Part shown: piece by piece, positions 11,211 through 44,043 of the stretch
Position numbering within the stretch: position 1 is the first letter of the stretch
Layout of the letters: each line of letters starts with the position of its first letter
Assembly: GCF_016907455.1 (NCBI RefSeq)
Contig: NZ_JAFBCB010000001.1
Span: forward strand, 3,286,001-3,350,000
Length of the DNA stretch: 64,000 nucleotides
Direction: 5' to 3'
Source: Brachybacterium muris
GTDB lineage: Bacteria > Actinomycetota > Actinomycetes > Actinomycetales > Dermabacteraceae
The notes under the pieces: generated by a model
Database searches by the model: none
Told to the model about the DNA's origin: nothing
The model's input: only the letters and a program-made list of their open reading frames with translations
Position numbers and translations under genes: made by a program

Positions 11211-11954
11211 CTACCTGCCGCGGGCGTGCACGGTCGCGAAGGCGCGCAGCAGATGGGGCGGCAGATCCGCGGTGCGGCGTCCCAGCAGCGCGAAGATGTC
11301 CTCCATCTCGCCGGGGTCGAAGTAGCCGTGGTCGCGGTAGGCACGGGCGCGCTCCATCACCGCGGGCACGTCCATCTCGGGGTGGAACTGGGTGGCGTAC
11401 TGCTTGGTGCCCACGCGGAACATCTGCACCGGGCACTGCTCGCCGGTGGCCAGCACGGTGGCGTGCGCGGGCAGCGCGGTGACGGCCTCCTTGTGGCCCA
11501 CCAGGCCCGTGAACACCTCCGGCAGGCCGGCCTCCACGACCACCGGGTCCTCCCTGCCGGCCTCGGTGAGGGTGATGGGCACGGCCCCGAGGGGTTCGCC
11601 GTGGGTGCGGTCGATGGTGGCTCCGGCGTGGGTTCCCAGCACCCCGATGCCGTAGCAGGCGCCCAGGAAGGGGATGTCCTGCTCCATCACCTGGTCCAGC
11701 ACCTCGGTGAGGGCCTTCTCGGCGTGGATCTGCTGGGCGCTCTTGGACTCCACCGGGTCCGAGACGGTGAAGGGGCTGCCACCGAGGTAGATCCCGGAGA
11801 TCTCCTCGGCGCGGATGCGGGGGGCGTCCTCCCGCTCCAGGCGGATCCACTGCAGGTCGGCGTGGTCGAGCTCGCTGAAGCGCTGGAAGGAGGCGGCCTC
11901 GGCGCGGGCCACGTCGTCCTCGGGTCGGGTGGTGAGCAGCAGGAACGGTTTCAC
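11211..11954 (-). CDS. class I glutamine amidotransferase-like protein
   Basis: A 247-residue stand-alone amidotransferase resembling the GMP-synthase glutaminase domain. The nucleophile is in GACYGIG and the His-Glu pair in QFHPEMD, so the triad is complete. The C-terminal AYRDHGYFDPGEMEDI stretch is typical of the actinobacterial family annotated as 'glutamine amidotransferase' with unknown acceptor. The GTG start is fixed by a -10 box TAGCAT 6 bases upstream and by absence of a ribosome site. It precedes the GH25 gene closely and may share its transcript. Confidence 0.85.
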   Translation of the reverse strand: MKPFLLLTTRPEDDVARAEAASFQRFSELDHADLQWIRLEREDAPRIRAEEISGIYLGGSPFTVSDPVESKSAQQIHAEKALTEVLDQVMEQDIPFLGACYGIGVLGTHAGATIDRTHGEPLGAVPITLTEAGREDPVVVEAGLPEVFTGLVGHKEAVTALPAHATVLATGEQCPVQMFRVGTKQYATQFHPEMDVPAVMERARAYRDHGYFDPGEMEDIFALLGRRTADLPPHLLRAFATVHARGR

Positions 11955-11960
11955 GCGAGA

Positions 11961-11966
11961 ATGCTA
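11961..11966 (-). promoter_or_regulatory. leaderless -10 box TAGCAT
   Basis: On the minus strand TAGCAT is followed by TCTCGC and then the GTG start of the amidotransferase, a 6-base spacing. Confidence 0.6.
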
Positions 11967-11992
11967 CGGCCACGCGACCAAGGAGAATGCCC

Positions 11993-12277
11993 GTGCCCCC
12001 CACCGCCAGCATCCCAGGCACCGCGACCGATCCCGCCGAGCCCGCGACCGCCGAGCCCACCGGCCGGATACGCAGGTCGGGAGTGCAGGCCGGGAGCCCA
12101 GGTCTTGGGGGGCGGGTTCAGCTGTTCGCGCCGAGGCGGGTGCGCAGGGCGTCGGTGAGCCCCTCGACCTCGACCCTCACCTCGGGGCGGCGGAAGGACT
12201 CGGGGGTGAGGCTGAAGCGCTGCGTGGTCTTGGCCTTCCCGTTCTCCTCGATCACCTCGAGGCCGTCCTCGCGGTAG
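11993..12277 (+). pseudogene. possible 5' remnant of a gene
   Basis: AAGGAG is placed 7 bases before a GTG, and the first 35 or so codons (Pro/Ala/Thr-rich) look like a normal N-terminal tail. After that the frame runs into DNA that is the antisense of the GNAT gene. The likely reading is a gene start whose body was lost, perhaps when the adjacent duplication formed. Chance is a real alternative. Confidence 0.2.
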
Positions 12278-12873
12278 CCGCAGGCGCGGGAGACGCCGCA
12301 GGAGGGGCCGTTGCCCACCACGGCACTGGTCTCGGCGCGCTCGGCTCCGAGGTGGTCGAAGGCCAGCACCAGCACGGCCTGGCGCATGAGCTTCCCGTAG
12401 CCCTGGCCCTGCTGGTCCAGGGTGAGCCACGATCCGGATCCCACCACGCGGCGCACCGCGAAGTGGGAGGCACTCAGGTCCTGCATGCCGATCAGCTGAT
12501 CGCCCAGGAAGATCCCGAAGGAGATCACCCAGCCCTCTGCGCGGAGCTCGGCGCGCAGATGCCACTGGAACTGCACGGAGTTCGCCACCCGCTGCTCGGG
12601 GTCCACGTCGTACCAGGGGAACACCTGGTCCGAGGTCATGTCCGCGAACACGGGCCGGCGCAGCAGGGCGGTGTACGCAGGCAGGTCCGCATCGCGCAGG
12701 GGGCGCAGGGTGAGGGGGCCGGCGGTGATCCGCAGACCGAAGGGCGGGTAGGCATCGATCAGTGCGGCGTCCGAGATCAGTGCGGCGTCCGAGATCAGTG
12801 CGTCGTCCGAGATCAGTGCGTCGTCGGTCGACATGGTCGGCTCGTCGGCCGACGGAGGCGGGGAGGTGGTCAC
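12118..12873 (-). CDS. GNAT family N-acetyltransferase, copy 1
   Basis: A 251-residue RimJ/RimL-like acetyltransferase. It contains TLRPLRDADLPAYTAL near the start of the fold, and the acetyl-CoA loop GQGYGKLMRQAVL. Product and substrate are unknown; the family includes ribosomal-protein and small-molecule acetyltransferases. It is a paralogue of the gene at 13984, about 85% alike by eye. The N-terminal linker contains ALISD repeated, encoded by an 18-bp minisatellite. The GTG start is set by TACGCT 6 bases before it. It lies downstream of hsp20 copy 1, separated by a terminator, so it is likely transcribed separately. Confidence 0.82.
   Translation of the reverse strand: MTTSPPPSADEPTMSTDDALISDDALISDAALISDAALIDAYPPFGLRITAGPLTLRPLRDADLPAYTALLRRPVFADMTSDQVFPWYDVDPEQRVANSVQFQWHLRAELRAEGWVISFGIFLGDQLIGMQDLSASHFAVRRVVGSGSWLTLDQQGQGYGKLMRQAVLVLAFDHLGAERAETSAVVGNGPSCGVSRACGYREDGLEVIEENGKAKTTQRFSLTPESFRRPEVRVEVEGLTDALRTRLGANS
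12757..12828. repeat. 18-bp minisatellite, four units, inside GNAT copy 1
   Basis: Four tandem 18-base units of the type GATCAGTGCGGCGTCCGA encode ALISDD/ALISDA repeats in the N-terminal linker. Being a multiple of three, unit gain or loss keeps the frame. Confidence 0.85.
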
Positions 12874-12879
12874 CGAGCC

Positions 12880-12885
12880 AGCGTA
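12880..12885 (-). promoter_or_regulatory. leaderless -10 box TACGCT
   Basis: TACGCT, then GGCTCG, then the GTG start of GNAT copy 1 on the minus strand. Confidence 0.6.
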
Positions 12886-12925
12886 CCGATGGCCCGGTCC
12901 GTGCCTCCTGCTCCGGGACGCACTA

Positions 12926-12959
12926 GCGCCCCCTGTATCCCGGAGGACACAGGGGGCGC
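12926..12959 (-). terminator. hairpin terminator after hsp20 copy 1
   Basis: An 11-bp perfect stem GCGCCCCCTGT / ACAGGGGGCGC with a 12-base loop lies 20 bp beyond the hsp20 stop. There is no U-tract, as is usual in actinobacteria. The same structure recurs after the second copy. Confidence 0.65.
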
Positions 12960-12979
12960 GCGTCAGGGCCGCATGCCGG

Positions 12980-13471
12980 TCAGGACTGCGAGTCACCCTC
13001 GACGGTGCGGTCGGTGTCGGAACCGGCGGTAATGCTGTTGCCGCTACCGGAGCCGACGGCGGTGGAGCGCTCGGAGTGGGCCACGTTGATCTTGCGCGGC
13101 TTGGCCTCCTCGGCCATCGGGATGGTCAGGCGCAGGACGCCGTCGGAGTACTCGGCCTGGATCCGGTCCAAGGACACCCGGCTGCCCAGGGTGAGCTGGC
13201 GGGCGAAGGTGCCGGTGGGACGCTCACGGGTGAGCCATGCACGGTCGGCGTCGCTCGCGGAGGCCGGCTTGCGCTCGGCACGGACGGTGAGGGTGCGGTC
13301 CTCGACGTCCACGTCGACGCTGGCCGGGTCCACGCCGGGCAGGTCGATCTCGGCCACGAAGCGGTCGCCGTCGCGGTACAGATCCATCGGCATGCCCACC
13401 GAGGCGGGCGTGCGGGTGAGGTCGGAGAAGAAGCGGTCCACTTCCTGGAACGGGGGGAAGCTGCGAGCCAT
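12980..13471 (-). CDS. Hsp20 small heat-shock protein, copy 1
   Basis: A 163-residue alpha-crystallin-type chaperone. The alpha-crystallin domain runs from MPMDLYRDGDRFVAEIDLPG to the VLRLTIPMAEEAKPRKINV end, followed by a polar tail (SGSGNSITAGSDTD). It holds unfolding proteins during stress without ATP. The first 138 residues match copy 2 except F6/T6. GGAGG is well placed before the ATG. Unlike copy 2, its upstream DNA shows neither the sigma-H/R-like promoter nor the HAIR-like site. Confidence 0.93.
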   Translation of the reverse strand: MARSFPPFQEVDRFFSDLTRTPASVGMPMDLYRDGDRFVAEIDLPGVDPASVDVDVEDRTLTVRAERKPASASDADRAWLTRERPTGTFARQLTLGSRVSLDRIQAEYSDGVLRLTIPMAEEAKPRKINVAHSERSTAVGSGSGNSITAGSDTDRTVEGDSQS

Positions 13472-13654
13472 GGTGTACCTCCTGCAGTACGGATGTGCGG
13501 ATCGAGCGGTGGGGCCGGTGGCTGGTAGCCCGCCGGCACCCCTGTCACCCAGCATGGCACAGACGGCCCTTCCTGTCTGCTCCCGGGGCGGAGAAATCTG
13601 GGCGGCGGTGACGGGGCTTCGACCGATCCTGCCACCGGCGCTGTCGAGCTCGCC

Positions 13655-13891
13655 GTGAAGCAGGTCAGCTCTGACCCCATCGACCCGTCGCTGCAGGCGG
13701 TAGAGCTCATGGCCTGGGGCGACTCGGGCTATGGGACGTGGGCGGAGCCGATCCTGGCGCGACTGGAACCGGCCTCACCAGATCAGCCGACGGACGGGGA
13801 CCTGGCCTGCACCGGCCTCATCGAGACCGGGCAGTTCCTCACCCCGTCGGCCGCGTTCACCATGCCGGAGCGGGTGCGCGCCCCGCAGTGA
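13655..13891 (+). CDS. hypothetical small protein, doubtful
   Basis: A 78-residue open frame from GTG, on the opposite strand between the two hsp20-GNAT units. It has no cysteine, membrane segment or recognisable motif, and no ribosome site before the GTG. Composition is ordinary for a soluble protein (WGDSGYGTWAEPILARLEP). It could be a short gene or a fragment left at the duplication joint. Confidence 0.3.
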   Translation: MKQVSSDPIDPSLQAVELMAWGDSGYGTWAEPILARLEPASPDQPTDGDLACTGLIETGQFLTPSAAFTMPERVRAPQ

Positions 13892-13983
13892 CCGGCCCGG
13901 GTCGGATCCCACGCTGACCGGCTGGGCCGCATCCGGCGGTGGCAGGCTGGACCGCATCCCGCGGCGAGCGCTTGGCCGCCGGG

Positions 13984-14742
13984 TCAGCCCTGTGCGCCGA
14001 GCCGCGCGCGCAGGGCATCGGTGAGGCCCTCGACCCCGACCTCGACCCGAGGCCGACGGAATTGCTCGGGGGTGAGGCTGAAGCGCTGCACGGTCTTGGC
14101 GCGGCCGTTCTCCTCGATCACCTCGAGGCCGTCCTCGCGGTATCCGCAGGCGCGGGAGACACCGCAGGACGGTCCGTTGCTCACGACGGCGCTGGTCTCG
14201 GCGCGGCGGGCGCTCAGGTGGTCGAAGGCCAGCACCAGCACGGCCTGGCGCATGAGCTTCCCGTGGCCCTTGCCCTGCTGGTCCAGGGTGAGCCAGGAGC
14301 CGGAGCTCACCACGCCGCGCACGGCGAAGTGGGAGGCGATCAGGTCCTGCATACCGATCAGCTGCTCGCCCAGGAAGATCCCGAAGGAGATCGCCCAGCC
14401 CTCGGGGCGCACCTTCGAGCGCAGGTGCCACTGGAACTGCACGGCACTCGACACTCGCTGCTCGGGATCCATGTCGTACCAGGGGAACACCTGGTCCGAG
14501 CTCATGTCGGCGAAGACGGGCCGGCGCAGCAGCGCGGTGTAGGCGGGCAGGTCCGCATCCCGTAGGGGGCGCAGGGTGAGGTCCCCGGCGCTGATGCGCA
14601 GCCCGAAGGGCGGGTAGGCGTCCACCAGGGCGGTGTCGACCACAGCGGTGTCGCTCGGAGCGGTGTCGCTCGGAGCGGTGTCGACCACAGCGGTGTCGAT
14701 CTCACGGGTGCCGGAGGCTGGCGGAGGGGTGGTGGGGCTCAC
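13984..14742 (-). CDS. GNAT family N-acetyltransferase, copy 2
   Basis: A 252-residue paralogue of the GNAT gene at 12118 with the same motifs (RPLRDADLPAYTAL; GKGHGKLMRQAVL). The two differ at scattered positions through the whole length, unlike the nearly identical hsp20 pair. The N-terminal linker has a different repeat, TAVVD/TAPSD, encoded by a 15-bp minisatellite. GTG start with TACCCT 6 bases upstream. A hairpin terminator separates it from hsp20 copy 2. Confidence 0.82.
   Translation of the reverse strand: MSPTTPPPASGTREIDTAVVDTAPSDTAPSDTAVVDTALVDAYPPFGLRISAGDLTLRPLRDADLPAYTALLRRPVFADMSSDQVFPWYDMDPEQRVSSAVQFQWHLRSKVRPEGWAISFGIFLGEQLIGMQDLIASHFAVRGVVSSGSWLTLDQQGKGHGKLMRQAVLVLAFDHLSARRAETSAVVSNGPSCGVSRACGYREDGLEVIEENGRAKTVQRFSLTPEQFRRPRVEVGVEGLTDALRARLGAQG
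14630..14704. repeat. 15-bp minisatellite, five units, inside GNAT copy 2
   Basis: Five tandem 15-base units starting GCGGTGTCG occupy the position held by the 18-bp repeat in copy 1, but the unit length and sequence differ. They encode a variable Thr/Asp/Ala-rich linker. Confidence 0.85.
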
Positions 14743-14748
14743 CGGGCA

Positions 14749-14754
14749 AGGGTA
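14749..14754 (-). promoter_or_regulatory. leaderless -10 box TACCCT
   Basis: TACCCT, TGCCCG, then the GTG start of GNAT copy 2 on the minus strand (6-base spacing). Confidence 0.55.
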
Positions 14755-14776
14755 TCGGCCGTCCCCGCGCATGGAC

Positions 14777-14809
14777 GCGCCCCCTGCATCGGGAGGACGC
14801 AGGGGGCGC
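14777..14809 (-). terminator. hairpin terminator after hsp20 copy 2
   Basis: An 11-bp perfect stem GCGCCCCCTGC / GCAGGGGGCGC with an 11-base loop, the counterpart of the terminator after copy 1. One stem pair has changed on both sides, which indicates selection for pairing. Confidence 0.65.
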
Positions 14810-14854
14810 GAGTGAGGGGGCGATCAGGGATGTCCCGATCGGGTCCGGGGCCGA

Positions 14855-15334
14855 TCAGGCCTGGACGTCGCCCTCGATGGTGCGGTTCTCGTCGGTCGAG
14901 GTCCCGGATCCGGAGCCGACGGCGGTGGAGCGCTCGGAGTGGGCCACGTTGATCTTGCGCGGCTTGGCCTCCTCGGCCATCGGGATGGTCAGGCGCAGGA
15001 CGCCGTCGGAGTACTCGGCCTGGATCCGGTCCAAGGACACCCGGCTGCCCAGGGTGAGCTGGCGGGCGAAGGTGCCGGTGGGACGCTCACGGGTGAGCCA
15101 TGCACGGTCGGCGTCGCTCGCGGAGGCCGGCTTGCGCTCGGCACGGACGGTGAGGGTGCGGTCCTCGACGTCCACGTCGACGCTGGCCGGGTCCACGCCG
15201 GGCAGGTCGATCTCGGCCACGAAGCGGTCGCCGTCGCGGTACAGATCCATCGGCATGCCCACCGAGGCGGGCGTGCGGGTGAGGTCGGAGAAGAAGCGGT
15301 CCACTTCCTGGAACGGGGTGAAGCTGCGAGCCAT
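14855..15334 (-). CDS. Hsp20 small heat-shock protein, copy 2
   Basis: A 159-residue small heat-shock protein, identical to copy 1 through the alpha-crystallin domain except residue 6, with a shorter, different C-terminal tail. GGAGG precedes the ATG by the usual distance. Upstream lie a sigma-H/R-type promoter and a HAIR-like element, so this is probably the stress-induced copy and the outermost gene of the duplicated array. HspR-controlled Hsp20 (Acr2 of Mycobacterium) is a known parallel. Confidence 0.93.
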   Translation of the reverse strand: MARSFTPFQEVDRFFSDLTRTPASVGMPMDLYRDGDRFVAEIDLPGVDPASVDVDVEDRTLTVRAERKPASASDADRAWLTRERPTGTFARQLTLGSRVSLDRIQAEYSDGVLRLTIPMAEEAKPRKINVAHSERSTAVGSGSGTSTDENRTIEGDVQA

Positions 15335-15752: not shown

Positions 15753-16385
15753 ATGACGATCGACGTGCTGCTCTCGGGTTTCGCTCCCTTCGGCGGGGCC
15801 CCGCTCAACGAGTCCTGGCAGGCCGTCCAGCTCGCGGCCCGGGAACTGCGTGGGCAGGGCGTGGCAACCCAGATCCTGGAGCTGCCCGTCGAGTTCGGCA
15901 CCGCGGGCCAGCAGCTGGCTGCGGCCGTACGCGAGCACCGCCCGCGCCTGGTCGTGGCCACGGGTCTCGCCGCCGGCCGTACGGGGGTCACTCCGGAGCG
16001 GGTGGCAATCAATGTGCGCGATGCCCGAATCCCTGACAACGCAGGCGAGAGCCCGGTCGACCAGCCCGTGGTCGATGCCGGGCCCGTCGGCTACTTCTCG
16101 ACGCTGCCGGTGAAGGCGATGGTCGCCGCCCTCGGCGAGGAGCCACCGGTCCCGGGGTCGGTGTCGCAGACAGCCGGCACCTATGTGTGCAACGACGTGT
16201 TCTACCTGCTGCAGCACCTGCTGGCGACCGAACAGGGCCTGGCGGGGATCCGTGGCGGCTTCGTGCACGTCCCCGCCGCGGAGGAGCTGCCGGTGGAGGA
16301 ATCGGCCCGGGCACTGGCGCGGATGGTGCTCACGGCCCTGTCCACACAGCAGGACGCCCCGGTGGCCGGCGGCGCGGAGCACTGA
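15753..16385 (+). CDS. pcp: pyrrolidone-carboxylate peptidase (pyroglutamyl peptidase I)
   Basis: A 210-residue cytoplasmic cysteine peptidase that removes N-terminal pyroglutamate. The family start GFAPFGG..NxSW is present, and the triad is Glu82 (PERVAIN), Cys146 (TYVCND) and His172 (FVHVP). Length is normal. Leaderless start. It stands alone, ending just before a DnaA-box cluster. Confidence 0.93.
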   Translation: MTIDVLLSGFAPFGGAPLNESWQAVQLAARELRGQGVATQILELPVEFGTAGQQLAAAVREHRPRLVVATGLAAGRTGVTPERVAINVRDARIPDNAGESPVDQPVVDAGPVGYFSTLPVKAMVAALGEEPPVPGSVSQTAGTYVCNDVFYLLQHLLATEQGLAGIRGGFVHVPAAEELPVEESARALARMVLTALSTQQDAPVAGGAEH

Positions 16386-16426
16386 GCCGGGCCCTCGCAA
16401 AGAGCTGGGCCGCCCCCAAACCTGAT

Positions 16427-16674
16427 TTATCCACAGAGTTGTCCACAGTTGGGGATGAATGACAGCCTTGTAGTTCCGCAGGTCGCTCGCCCGGGGACTC
16501 TCTTGGGGTGCTGATCTCAGCCGGACTCCGGGGGGCGAGGCCATGGCGAGGAGCCCGAGTTGCTCCCTTGCGACCACCGGCTGTCCACATCGACACCACA
16601 GTTGTCCACAGCAAGATCGTGAAATCCCCCGCGCATCCCGAGTTATCCACAATCTTGTCCACGGCTGGGGATAG
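16427..16674. other. DnaA-box cluster
   Basis: Perfect boxes: TTATCCACA at 16427 and 16643, TTGTCCACA at 16439 and 16602. Near boxes: CTGTCCACA at 16581, TTGTCCACG at 16655. Two further reverse-type near boxes (TGGGGATga, TGGGGATag) follow at 16450 and 16666. The first and last groups have the same layout, TTATCCACA-N3-TTGTCCAC then GGGGAT, so the module is duplicated about 216 bp apart. No dnaA or dnaN is adjacent. Confidence 0.65.
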
Positions 16675-16832
16675 TCACACCGTTGTCATTCCCCGCCCCG
16701 AAGCCGCTGGCGCCGCTGCCGCTGGCTCCTCGCGCCCCTGGCCCCCCTGACTGTCCCTCATTCCGCCACCCCATCTGGTCCCCCTGGCTGGCCTCATCCC
16801 GTTCCCCATCTCGTGACCCCCTAGCTACCGAT

Positions 16833-16893
16833 AGGTATGGAGCGTGAGGTGTCGGAATGGGCGTCCCATTCCGACACCTCACGCTCCATACCT
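16833..16893. repeat. perfect 29-bp inverted repeat with 3-base loop
   Basis: The left arm 16833-16861 starts AGGTATGGAGCGTGAGG; the right arm 16865-16893 is its exact complement; the loop is CGT. It lies between the convergent pcp and rhomboid genes. It could act as a bidirectional terminator, but 29 perfect pairs without U-tract is far more than termination needs. Confidence 0.9.
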
Positions 16894-17018
16894 GCGAGTA
16901 ACCGGGGACTTGCGAGTAACCGGGAACCTGCGAGTACCTGGGAACTTGCGAGTAACCGGGAGCCTGCGAGTGACTGGGAACTTGCGAGTAACCGGGAACC
17001 TGCGAGTACCTGGGAGCT
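16893..17018. repeat. seven tandem 18-bp repeats
   Basis: Seven contiguous 18-base units beginning TGCGAGTA(A/C)C(C/T)GGGA start on the last base of the palindrome and stop 10 bp before the rhomboid stop codon. Units alternate between two subtypes (AACCGGG and ACCTGGG), so the array may have grown by copying longer blocks. No spacers, so not a CRISPR array. Confidence 0.9.
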
Positions 17019-17028
17019 CTGGGGCGGC

Positions 17029-17952
17029 TCAGAAGAACAGCGACGGCAGCGTCATGTACTTGATCATCACCGCGCCGATGCAGATCAGCACCGCGCCTGC
17101 GATCAGGAGCGAGTGGATCAGTGCGGAGCGCCTGGCCGCAGCCTGCCGGTCATCCCCGGCCTTAACCTTCGGACGCATCGCGAACATGGCTGCGGCCAGC
17201 GCCGTTCCCACCACCAGGCCGCCCAGGTGCCCCTGCCAGGAGATGTTGGGGACGGTGAAGGTGATCACCAGGTTCAGGCCGATCAGCACCAGGATCTGGG
17301 CGCTCTGGCCGCCCATCCGCCGGTTCACGATGAACATGGCGCCGAACAGGCCGAACACGCCGCCGCTCGCGCCGAGGGTGGCGGTGGTCCACTCCAGGGA
17401 CAGGGGGTTCGCCAGCAGGTACACGGCGGTGTGGCCACCCAGCACGGAGGCCAGGTACAGCCCGGCGTAGCGGGCATGACCCATGGTCTGCTCGACGTAC
17501 TGGCCCACGATCCACAGCGCCCACATGTTCAGTGCCAGGTGCAGCAGCCCACCGTGCAGGAACCCGGCGGTGAGGAACGTCCACGGCATCGCGATCGCGC
17601 GGAACGGGGCGAACAGACCCAGCTGCTCGACGATCCCCGGCACCAGCATCTGCCCCAGGAACGCCGCCACACACAGGGCCATCAGCGTGTACGTCACGTA
17701 GGGGGTGCGCCCACCCATGGAGGCACCCATCGCGTTGCGGGGCCGGGTGCTGGCCTGCTGGCGGGCGATGTCCTTCTCGCAGTCCACGCACAGCACGCCC
17801 ACCTGGGTGGGCCGCTGGCACTGGGGGCAGGCGGGTCGGTCGCACCGCTTGCAGCGCACGTAGCTGATGGTGTCCGGATGGCGGGGGCAGACGGGCTGGC
17901 CCTGCGGCTCCGGGGCGTCCTGGGCGCTGTAGCCGTAGGTGGGGCGATTCAT
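17029..17952 (-). CDS. rhomboid family intramembrane serine protease with N-terminal zinc-binding region
   Basis: A 307-residue protein. Residues 22-58 hold Cys22, His25, Cys34, Cys37, Cys42, Cys45, Cys55 and Cys58, a B-box-like zinc-binding segment common in actinobacterial rhomboids. Six or seven membrane helices follow. Catalysis uses Ser196 in GASGG and His242 in WQGHLGG; the HGGLLHLALNMWAL motif of helix 2 is intact. In many actinobacteria this gene lies near ppiA, as here (one gene away). TAGGAA stands 7 bases before the ATG, so it may also be leaderless. Confidence 0.92.
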   Translation of the reverse strand: MNRPTYGYSAQDAPEPQGQPVCPRHPDTISYVRCKRCDRPACPQCQRPTQVGVLCVDCEKDIARQQASTRPRNAMGASMGGRTPYVTYTLMALCVAAFLGQMLVPGIVEQLGLFAPFRAIAMPWTFLTAGFLHGGLLHLALNMWALWIVGQYVEQTMGHARYAGLYLASVLGGHTAVYLLANPLSLEWTTATLGASGGVFGLFGAMFIVNRRMGGQSAQILVLIGLNLVITFTVPNISWQGHLGGLVVGTALAAAMFAMRPKVKAGDDRQAAARRSALIHSLLIAGAVLICIGAVMIKYMTLPSLFF

Positions 17953-19399: not shown

Positions 19400-19936
19400 T
19401 CAGCGCTCGATGCTGACCGACTGGATGACGACGTCCTCGAGGGGACGGTCGCGCATGTCGGTCTTGGTGGCGCCGATCTCGTCGACGACCTTCTTGGAGT
19501 CCTCATCGGCCACGACACCGAACACGGTGTGCTTGCCCTGCAGGTGCGGGGTGGGGCCCACGGTGATGAAGAACTGGGAGCCGTTGGTGCCGGAGGGGCG
19601 GCCGGTGATGGCGTTCATGCGCTTGCCGGCGTTGGCCATCGCGAGCACGTAGGGCTCGTTGAAGTTCTTCTCGGAGATCTCGTCGTCGAAGTTGTAGCCG
19701 GGACCGCCGGTGCCGGTGCCCAGGGGGTCACCGCCCTGGATCATGAAGCCGGAGATCACGCGGTGGAAGATCACGCCGTCGTAGAAGGGGCGGGTGACCT
19801 TCTGGCCGCTCTCGGGGTCGGAGAACTCGCGGGTGCCCTCGGCGAGGCCCACGAAGTTCTCGACGGTCTTGGGGGCGTGGTCGGGGAACAGCTCCAGGCG
19901 GATGTCCCCATGGTTGGTGTGCAGAGTTGCGAACAT
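19400..19936 (-). CDS. ppiA: cyclophilin-type peptidyl-prolyl cis-trans isomerase
   Basis: A 178-residue cyclophilin. The catalytic and substrate-binding core is present: FHRVISGFMIQGGDP, the MANAGKRMN(A)ITGRPSGTNGSQFFIT strand and KHTVFGVV. The MANA..NGSQFF order is the bacterial form. There is no signal peptide, so it acts in the cytoplasm. I start at the ATG of MFATLHTNHG; GAGGA is 7 bases upstream. ppiA next to a rhomboid gene near the replication origin is a common actinobacterial arrangement. Confidence 0.93.
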   Translation of the reverse strand: MFATLHTNHGDIRLELFPDHAPKTVENFVGLAEGTREFSDPESGQKVTRPFYDGVIFHRVISGFMIQGGDPLGTGTGGPGYNFDDEISEKNFNEPYVLAMANAGKRMNAITGRPSGTNGSQFFITVGPTPHLQGKHTVFGVVADEDSKKVVDEIGATKTDMRDRPLEDVVIQSVSIER

Positions 19937-20064
19937 GCGGTCATCCTCGCACACGGCCCCGACACGCAGCCGAGGGCCCCGGCGCGCCTCGCCCAGGGCT
20001 GAATCCATGGTGCCCACCGTGCCCGTGGACCCGCCAGGCCCTCTGCTCCGACCGACCCTCGCCC

Positions 20065-44023: not shown

Positions 44024-44043
44024 GTGGTTGAGATATCAACTAC
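44024..44043. promoter_or_regulatory. MarR-type palindromic operator candidate
   Basis: GTGGTTGA-GATA-TCAACTAC: 8-base half-sites with one mismatch around a 4-base centre, directly upstream of the dioxygenase gene. No MarR gene is near, so the regulator would act in trans. Confidence 0.5.

Follow-up and report, generated by a model that had tools for sequence, protein, structure and literature searches.

A duplicated DnaA-box module beside a rhomboid gene of Brachybacterium muris is probably a replication-control site shared by many actinobacteria

Results

A 64-kb stretch of the Brachybacterium muris genome (hereafter the window; the genome, G000, is one contig of 3,647,194 bases) contains a cluster of DnaA boxes in the spacer between two convergent genes, pcp encoding pyroglutamyl peptidase (15753..16385, plus strand, PF01470) and a gene encoding a rhomboid protein (17029..17952, minus strand, PF01694), both of which end at the spacer. 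The boxes belong to two copies of a module in which DnaA boxes are joined to a 20-bp dyad. Because units like it are found in this gene neighbourhood in many actinobacteria, the site probably serves in replication control and not as an origin.

All four exact matches to TTRTCCACA in the window lie at this site (16427, 16439, 16602 and 16643, plus strand), compared with a mean of 0.22 per shuffle of the window and no shuffle of 100 with at least four. Genome-wide, the pattern was found 32 times versus 6 for the reversed control pattern. Boxes with one mismatch start at 16581 (CTGTCCACA) and 16655 (TTGTCCACG), and a third at 16338 falls within the 3' end of pcp. An earlier reading made from the sequence alone (the sequence-only reading) had reported four perfect and at least two near-perfect boxes within 250 bp, which was confirmed at 16427-16663. 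The duplicated module that it described was also recovered, as two copies (16410-16456 and 16626-16672) offset by 216 bp and 74% identical. The unit is longer than that description, with GGGGAT forming part of an inverted near-box that is followed by the dyad, an anatomy in which relatives agree.

The unit starts with two boxes (1 and 2) separated by 3 bp; an inverted near-box including GGGGA follows 2-3 bp after box 2 and is overlapped by the 20-bp dyad. In module A, pattern matching placed the perfect box A1 (TTATCCACA) at 16427..16435 and the perfect box A2 (TTGTCCACA) 3 bp past it at 16439..16447, both on the plus strand. The inverted near-box A3 (16450..16458, minus strand, the plus strand reading TGGGGATGA) was assigned from the sequence and the aligned modules, and dyad A (GAATGACAGCCTTGTAGTTC, 16457..16476, corresponding to G000:C1:3302457-3302476) is an exact match to GAANNACANNNNTGTNNTTC that overlaps A3 by 2 bp. 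Module B is preceded on the plus strand by the one-mismatch box at 16581..16589, which lies 21 bp ahead of a perfect box (TTGTCCACA, 16602..16610) that is itself 41 bp ahead of the module; a box 21 bp ahead is likewise present in some relatives. The module continues with the perfect box B1 (TTATCCACA, 16643..16651, plus strand), the one-mismatch box B2 (16655..16663, plus strand), the inverted near-box B3 (16666..16674, minus strand, the plus strand reading TGGGGATAG) and dyad B (TAGTCACACCGTTGTCATTC, 16672..16691), a degenerate copy. A profile made from order-wide modules (R2) matched module A at 16427..16477 with 54.6 bits and module B at 16643..16692 with 46.7 bits, both on the plus strand.

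This anatomy was examined in an alignment of 50 modules (A3), drawn from 32 of 40 loci, 12 of 13 of a further set and six Brachybacterium sequences. The boxes are 3 bp apart in 46 of the 50. Box 1 matches exactly in 32 modules and with one mismatch in 15, the corresponding numbers for box 2 being 9 and 32, and the best inverted box, taken over several offsets, has 0-2 mismatches in 49. A separate profile (A1) was built from 42 of 44 listed module sequences, two with shifted spacing having been dropped.

Conservation within the genus was assessed in 38 congeneric genomes. With profile R1, 36 genomes each had two matches at E < 1e-7; the two lacking matches (G029 and G032) have completeness values of 74% and 84% and assemblies of 570 and 410 contigs. 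All three named Brachybacterium species have two modules. The cluster is thus conserved in close relatives, the opposite of the outcome that the sequence-only reading had said would count against it. The rhomboid gene was found in 34 of the 38 genomes, and both modules lie within 3 kb of a rhomboid match in 34 of the 36 genomes with modules, the other two (G016 and G030) having modules and no rhomboid match found. Exact or one-mismatch boxes lie within 1.5 kb of the rhomboid end in 28 of 30 loci, and in the genomes of the two exceptions (L102 in G028, L110 in G018) both modules lie 1.8-3 kb from the rhomboid gene. When spacers from 24 of the 30 loci were aligned (L102, L110, L114, L115, L116 and L117 were left out, the site being shifted, absent from the flank or otherwise arranged), 83 of 118 module columns reached at least 80% identity versus 40 of 525 other columns, with the module ranges chosen by the analyst. 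A search with the rhomboid protein yielded six loci, of which the closest three are from named Brachybacterium species, two are from more distant actinobacterial metagenome-assembled genomes and one is a weak archaeal match.

Two repeat features occur near the site in B. muris. The interval separating the site from the rhomboid gene (16810-17036) contains a long inverted repeat (16810-16861/16865-16916) together with 18-bp repeats in tandem, in columns that are gaps in the consensus of the 24 relatives. On the pcp side (11950-15334), two consecutive pairs of acetyltransferase and Hsp20 frames with near-identical Hsp20 frames apparently represent a tandem duplication; the Pfam comparison covers the second pair.

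Beyond the genus, R1 at E <= 0.001 matched 216 of 297 genomes of the order, representing 77 of 94 genera, and R2 did so for 281 of the 394 genomes of the class, representing 110 of 137 genera; both tallies include the genus itself and partial matches of the oriC type. The R2 matches in the Streptomyces-like family f37 were weak. A stronger test of conservation than these tallies is the place of the module among genes, which was read in 86 loci of 22 families taken from the best-scoring matches, a non-random sample of one to few per genus in which four loci are from other genera of the family of B. muris. The rhomboid gene, crgA or both lie within about 2 kb in 80 of the 86; three of the remaining six adjoin dnaA instead and three are near none of the queried genes. 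Where both genes are present (60 loci), the module lies between them in convergent orientation in 54, between them in another order in one and beside them in five. Its direction in the 54 convergent loci is toward crgA in 36 and toward rhomboid in 18. The three CrgA query proteins pass the Pfam cut-off. In B. muris crgA is 276 kb from the site, which remained beside the rhomboid gene. The comparison of sequences indicates that the module has been kept in place and anatomy across actinobacterial families.

The position of the site relative to the origin was determined from dnaA and GC skew, the check that the sequence-only reading had proposed. The dnaA gene is located at about 3.474-3.476 Mb, approximately 173 kb from the site, and cumulative GC skew over the surrounding 400 kb is at its maximum near 3.467-3.50 Mb and shows no reversal at 3.302 Mb, where the site lies. 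Only this local extreme was used because the skew is weak and 18 stretches of 14 kb across the rest of the genome gave no clear pattern. The site therefore neither adjoins dnaA and dnaN nor lies at the local skew extreme, and it is not the replication origin. The suggestion that the cluster may be part of an extended origin, raised by the sequence-only reading, is not supported by the same evidence. In 30-bp steps the GC content of the spacer falls to a minimum of 40%, at boxes A1 and A2, compared with 43% in the spacer between dnaA and dnaN, and 13 of 317 overlapping tiles of the window, the tile of the site included, are equally low.

In 41 genomes of other families the module is downstream of dnaA at distances of 9,962 to 95,944 bp (median 21.5 kb), starting at the edge of the DnaA domain match. 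These are 41 of 49 other-family genomes; in six the interval wraps the contig end, in G039 the module is upstream of dnaA, and G076 was left out for having two full matches, one at dnaA and one about 15 kb on. For G611 the distance refers to a match with neither rhomboid nor crgA beside it, a second match lying 11 kb away. Three genomes of genus g96, which we take to be Mycobacterium, have the module 13.6-15.4 kb from dnaA. Distances are larger in Brachybacterium, 79 to 397 kb downstream of dnaA in 16 genomes with a median of 243 kb. The earlier suggestion that ppiA and rhomboid genes are often near the origin in actinobacteria (in the window ppiA, encoding a cyclophilin, is at 19400..20017 on the minus strand, PF00160) thus finds support outside the genus for the adjoining module, the gene context having been read in 29 of the 41 genomes, with the greater distances of Brachybacterium as an exception.

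Modules were also sought at dnaA itself. In the oriC regions of 20 other genomes, the full module was found in two (G039 and G076) and none was full-length in the other 18, many of the 20 holding box pairs without the dyad. The arrangement of two boxes 3 bp apart followed by GGGGA also occurs at the dnaA region of the genus Brachybacterium and in related oriC regions. Full modules adjoin dnaA in G039, G228, G426 and G076 (loci L179, L177, L254 and L272), instead of or besides the place at rhomboid and crgA, and could show mobility of the element between control site and origin.

The dyad has the consensus GAAYNACA-N4-TGTNRTTC over 20 bp, exact in module A and degenerate in module B, and both arms fit one sequence, roughly RAAYNACA. 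The core ACA-N4-TGT is present in 50 of 50 aligned modules and 42 of 42 modules of the genus set, an invariance that makes it uninformative on covariation. At the variable arm positions pairing was about as independence predicts: 0.50 observed versus 0.40 expected in the 50-module alignment and 0.45 versus 0.47 in the genus set at position 1, 0.52 versus 0.57 and 0.43 versus 0.34 at position 4, and 0.22 versus 0.31 and 0 versus 0.06 at position 5, showing no covariation in either set. Fold z-scores were slightly low (means -0.94 and -0.95, with 6 and 8 of 50 below -2). An RNA hairpin was considered and dropped on the lack of covariation and the weak folding. The exact dyad was counted 15 times across 14 genomes, 11 times within a module, with none in G023 and G238 and none for the control. 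Because the exact dyad is rare and the variable positions do not covary, it looks like a site for a protein dimer. Six forms of it, 12-14 bases long, had no match in the open-licence literature searched.

Dyad-like sites (at least 12 of 14 positions) were found eight times in the 20 oriC regions, in six of the regions, compared with about 0.35 expected from base-composition shuffles. This enrichment suggests that the predicted partner protein is tied to replication and may also act at oriC. Within one mismatch the dyad occurs at six places in G000, one of which is the site described here. The others (C1:82793, 1254270, 1600769, 2290450 and 2940333) are possible further targets of the predicted partner, and one of them lies upstream of a gene encoding a transglycosylase-like domain as in Rpf proteins.

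MtrA was considered as the partner. Its boxes in mycobacterial oriC are reported to be regulator sites set among DnaA boxes, its reported targets include rpf genes, and the half-site of the dyad is similar to the MtrA motifs reported. The candidate was suggested by this half-site similarity and by the dyad-like site upstream of the Rpf-type gene. It was dropped on geometry, the MtrA box being described as a direct repeat of a GTNAC-type motif (PMC13189361) and the dyad being an inverted repeat.

Discussion

Position, anatomy and conservation favour a control site of the datA or DARS kind over an origin, and on balance we consider the site to be a non-origin DnaA-control element, predicted to bind DnaA. 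By analogy the site is best read as an old locus for DnaA control in actinobacteria, served by a dedicated partner protein and comparable to datA and DARS or to the DnaA-box clusters of Bacillus and Streptomyces. DnaA would assemble on the triad of two direct boxes and an inverted near-box, and a dimeric partner protein would bind the dyad. Because the dyad overlaps the inverted near-box, binding of the two proteins is expected to be interdependent, each helping or excluding the other. After firing, such a complex would reduce the amount of free or ATP-bound DnaA by titration or inactivation, as at datA, a role as sink or inactivator that would suit the site because it is copied soon after initiation in most families. 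Reactivation of DnaA, as at DARS, is a less likely alternative.

The comparison with known systems shows both likeness and difference. In E. coli, datA is reported to have an IHF site among its DnaA boxes, and datA and DARS2 both to use accessory DNA-binding proteins (PMC4585315, PMC5742627). The site described here is likewise a non-coding DnaA-box cluster outside oriC with a predicted site for a second protein among the boxes; unlike datA, it has the dyad and stays beside rhomboid or crgA. No IHF consensus is present at the site, the sole match in the window to WATCAANNNNTTR within one mismatch being at 44034. DARS2 is reported to need accessory proteins, as is predicted for the site, although the accessory sites of DARS1 and DARS2 are other than those found here. 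The DARS core comprises three boxes at fixed spacing with an opposed pair, compared with the fixed triad with an inverted third near-box at this site. In function, datA stimulates hydrolysis of DnaA-bound ATP, with extra initiations on its loss, and DARS promotes the release of ADP from DnaA.

Conserved DnaA-box clusters outside oriC, a description that the site fits, are also found in Gram-positive bacteria, where such clusters are further characterised by strong DnaA binding. Those of B. subtilis and S. coelicolor are reported to repress untimely initiation (PMC5742627, PMC4585315), and neither a dyad nor a place at rhomboid or crgA is mentioned in the consulted passages. The statement of the sequence-only reading that no such site is well described in this group was therefore too strong. 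A candidate for identity with the element is one known Streptomyces cluster, H69, which may lie near crgA. No paper linking an intergenic site at crgA with DnaA and replication initiation, and none of relevance on the named Streptomyces clusters, was found in a literature restricted to open-licence papers, so the element may have been published elsewhere.

Several observations weigh against this reading. Partial matches lacking the dyad are counted in the 216 of 297 and 281 of 394 genomes. One of the three context loci away from all queried genes (L180) runs into the end of its contig roughly 0.6 kb from dnaA, and the two distant metagenome-assembled genomes have a related rhomboid gene without the full module (none at L056, a partial one at L057). 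The roughly tenfold difference in dnaA distance between Brachybacterium and other genomes disfavours a strict dosage clock. Finally, the full module stands at dnaA itself in 3 of 86 loci and 2 of 20 oriC regions, which suggests that the element may act at origins.

Four other explanations were weighed. Roadblocks formed at DnaA boxes are known in E. coli, and DnaA bound between two convergent genes might halt both transcripts. The 54 of 60 loci with the module between convergent rhomboid and crgA genes are consistent with such a terminator, and the slightly low fold z-scores together with the nearby long inverted repeat, which has no T run, may point to termination in the spacer. The explanation is nevertheless unlikely given that the module is turned either way (36 versus 18), is kept in G018 and G028 at 1.8-3 kb from rhomboid and in G000 without crgA, and that the variable arm positions do not covary. 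A paired hairpin followed by a U tract, as in an intrinsic terminator, was not found at the module, and the one terminator-like match is at 17041-17054 in the end of the rhomboid gene rather than at the site.

It is also improbable that the site marks the chromosome for organisation or segregation in the manner of parS, matS or a loader site with DnaA as helper. A rare dyad near dnaA in most families, placed independently of orientation, would agree with such a mark, yet a conserved DnaA triad is not known to be typical of one, and the dyad is not known to resemble any, no comparison with a motif database having been made.

An operator for a neighbouring gene or for an unseen small RNA appears quite unlikely. 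In three loci of family f22 (L223, L238 and L245) the module is flanked by crgA and by the open frame that follows it on that strand, and at least one of the five other dyad-like sites in G000 is upstream of a predicted gene, but elsewhere the module is mostly between gene ends and no promoter-like match or Rfam family at gathering score was found at the site. The lack of an Rfam match led to a small RNA being dropped. An extended or secondary origin is highly improbable, for although the triad is oriC-like and the GC dip at or below that of the dnaA-dnaN spacer, the dip consists of the boxes themselves and recurs in tiles elsewhere in the window, and dnaA and the skew extreme are distant.

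A broader version of the DnaA-control reading is more tentative. DnaA and a dimeric partner specific to a nearly single-copy dyad may together form an initiation-timing switch at the site, which would then be an ancestral cell-cycle locus of actinobacteria and the missing counterpart of datA and DARS, in g96 as elsewhere; we hold this possible, at somewhat less than even chance. The class is not known to have Hda or SeqA, and the restraint of DnaA after initiation is poorly understood in actinobacteria. Should the site prove to control DnaA, loci of this kind can have an age like that of much of the class, and the closeness of the rhomboid/crgA spacer to the origin in most families would have an explanation. 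With its fixed anatomy, predictable place and own second site, the short element is a target for deletion in laboratory species, and the dyad could serve as bait for finding the partner protein.

Other DnaA-box clusters

A second cluster in G000 (C1:3489794-3490026; L011:5794-6026) has five exact and two one-mismatch boxes and lies about 14 kb from dnaA. It adjoins a thioredoxin-like frame (weak Pfam match) and a pyridine nucleotide-disulphide oxidoreductase, near a transposase gene, and is possibly part of the genuine origin region in Brachybacterium. In 21 of 38 congeneric genomes a single contig carries opposed box pairs separated by 8-13 kb.

DnaA-box-like clusters at C1:1639970-1640405, 2735069-2735256 and 1041479-1041564 consist of a composite repeat, TGTGGAWAA-N7-9-GGGGAGGAAC, which was first taken as the same element as the module and found to be different. 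The genome contains GGGGAGGAAC 52 times versus 10 for the reversed control, and one of the clusters is beside a DUF222/HNH frame.
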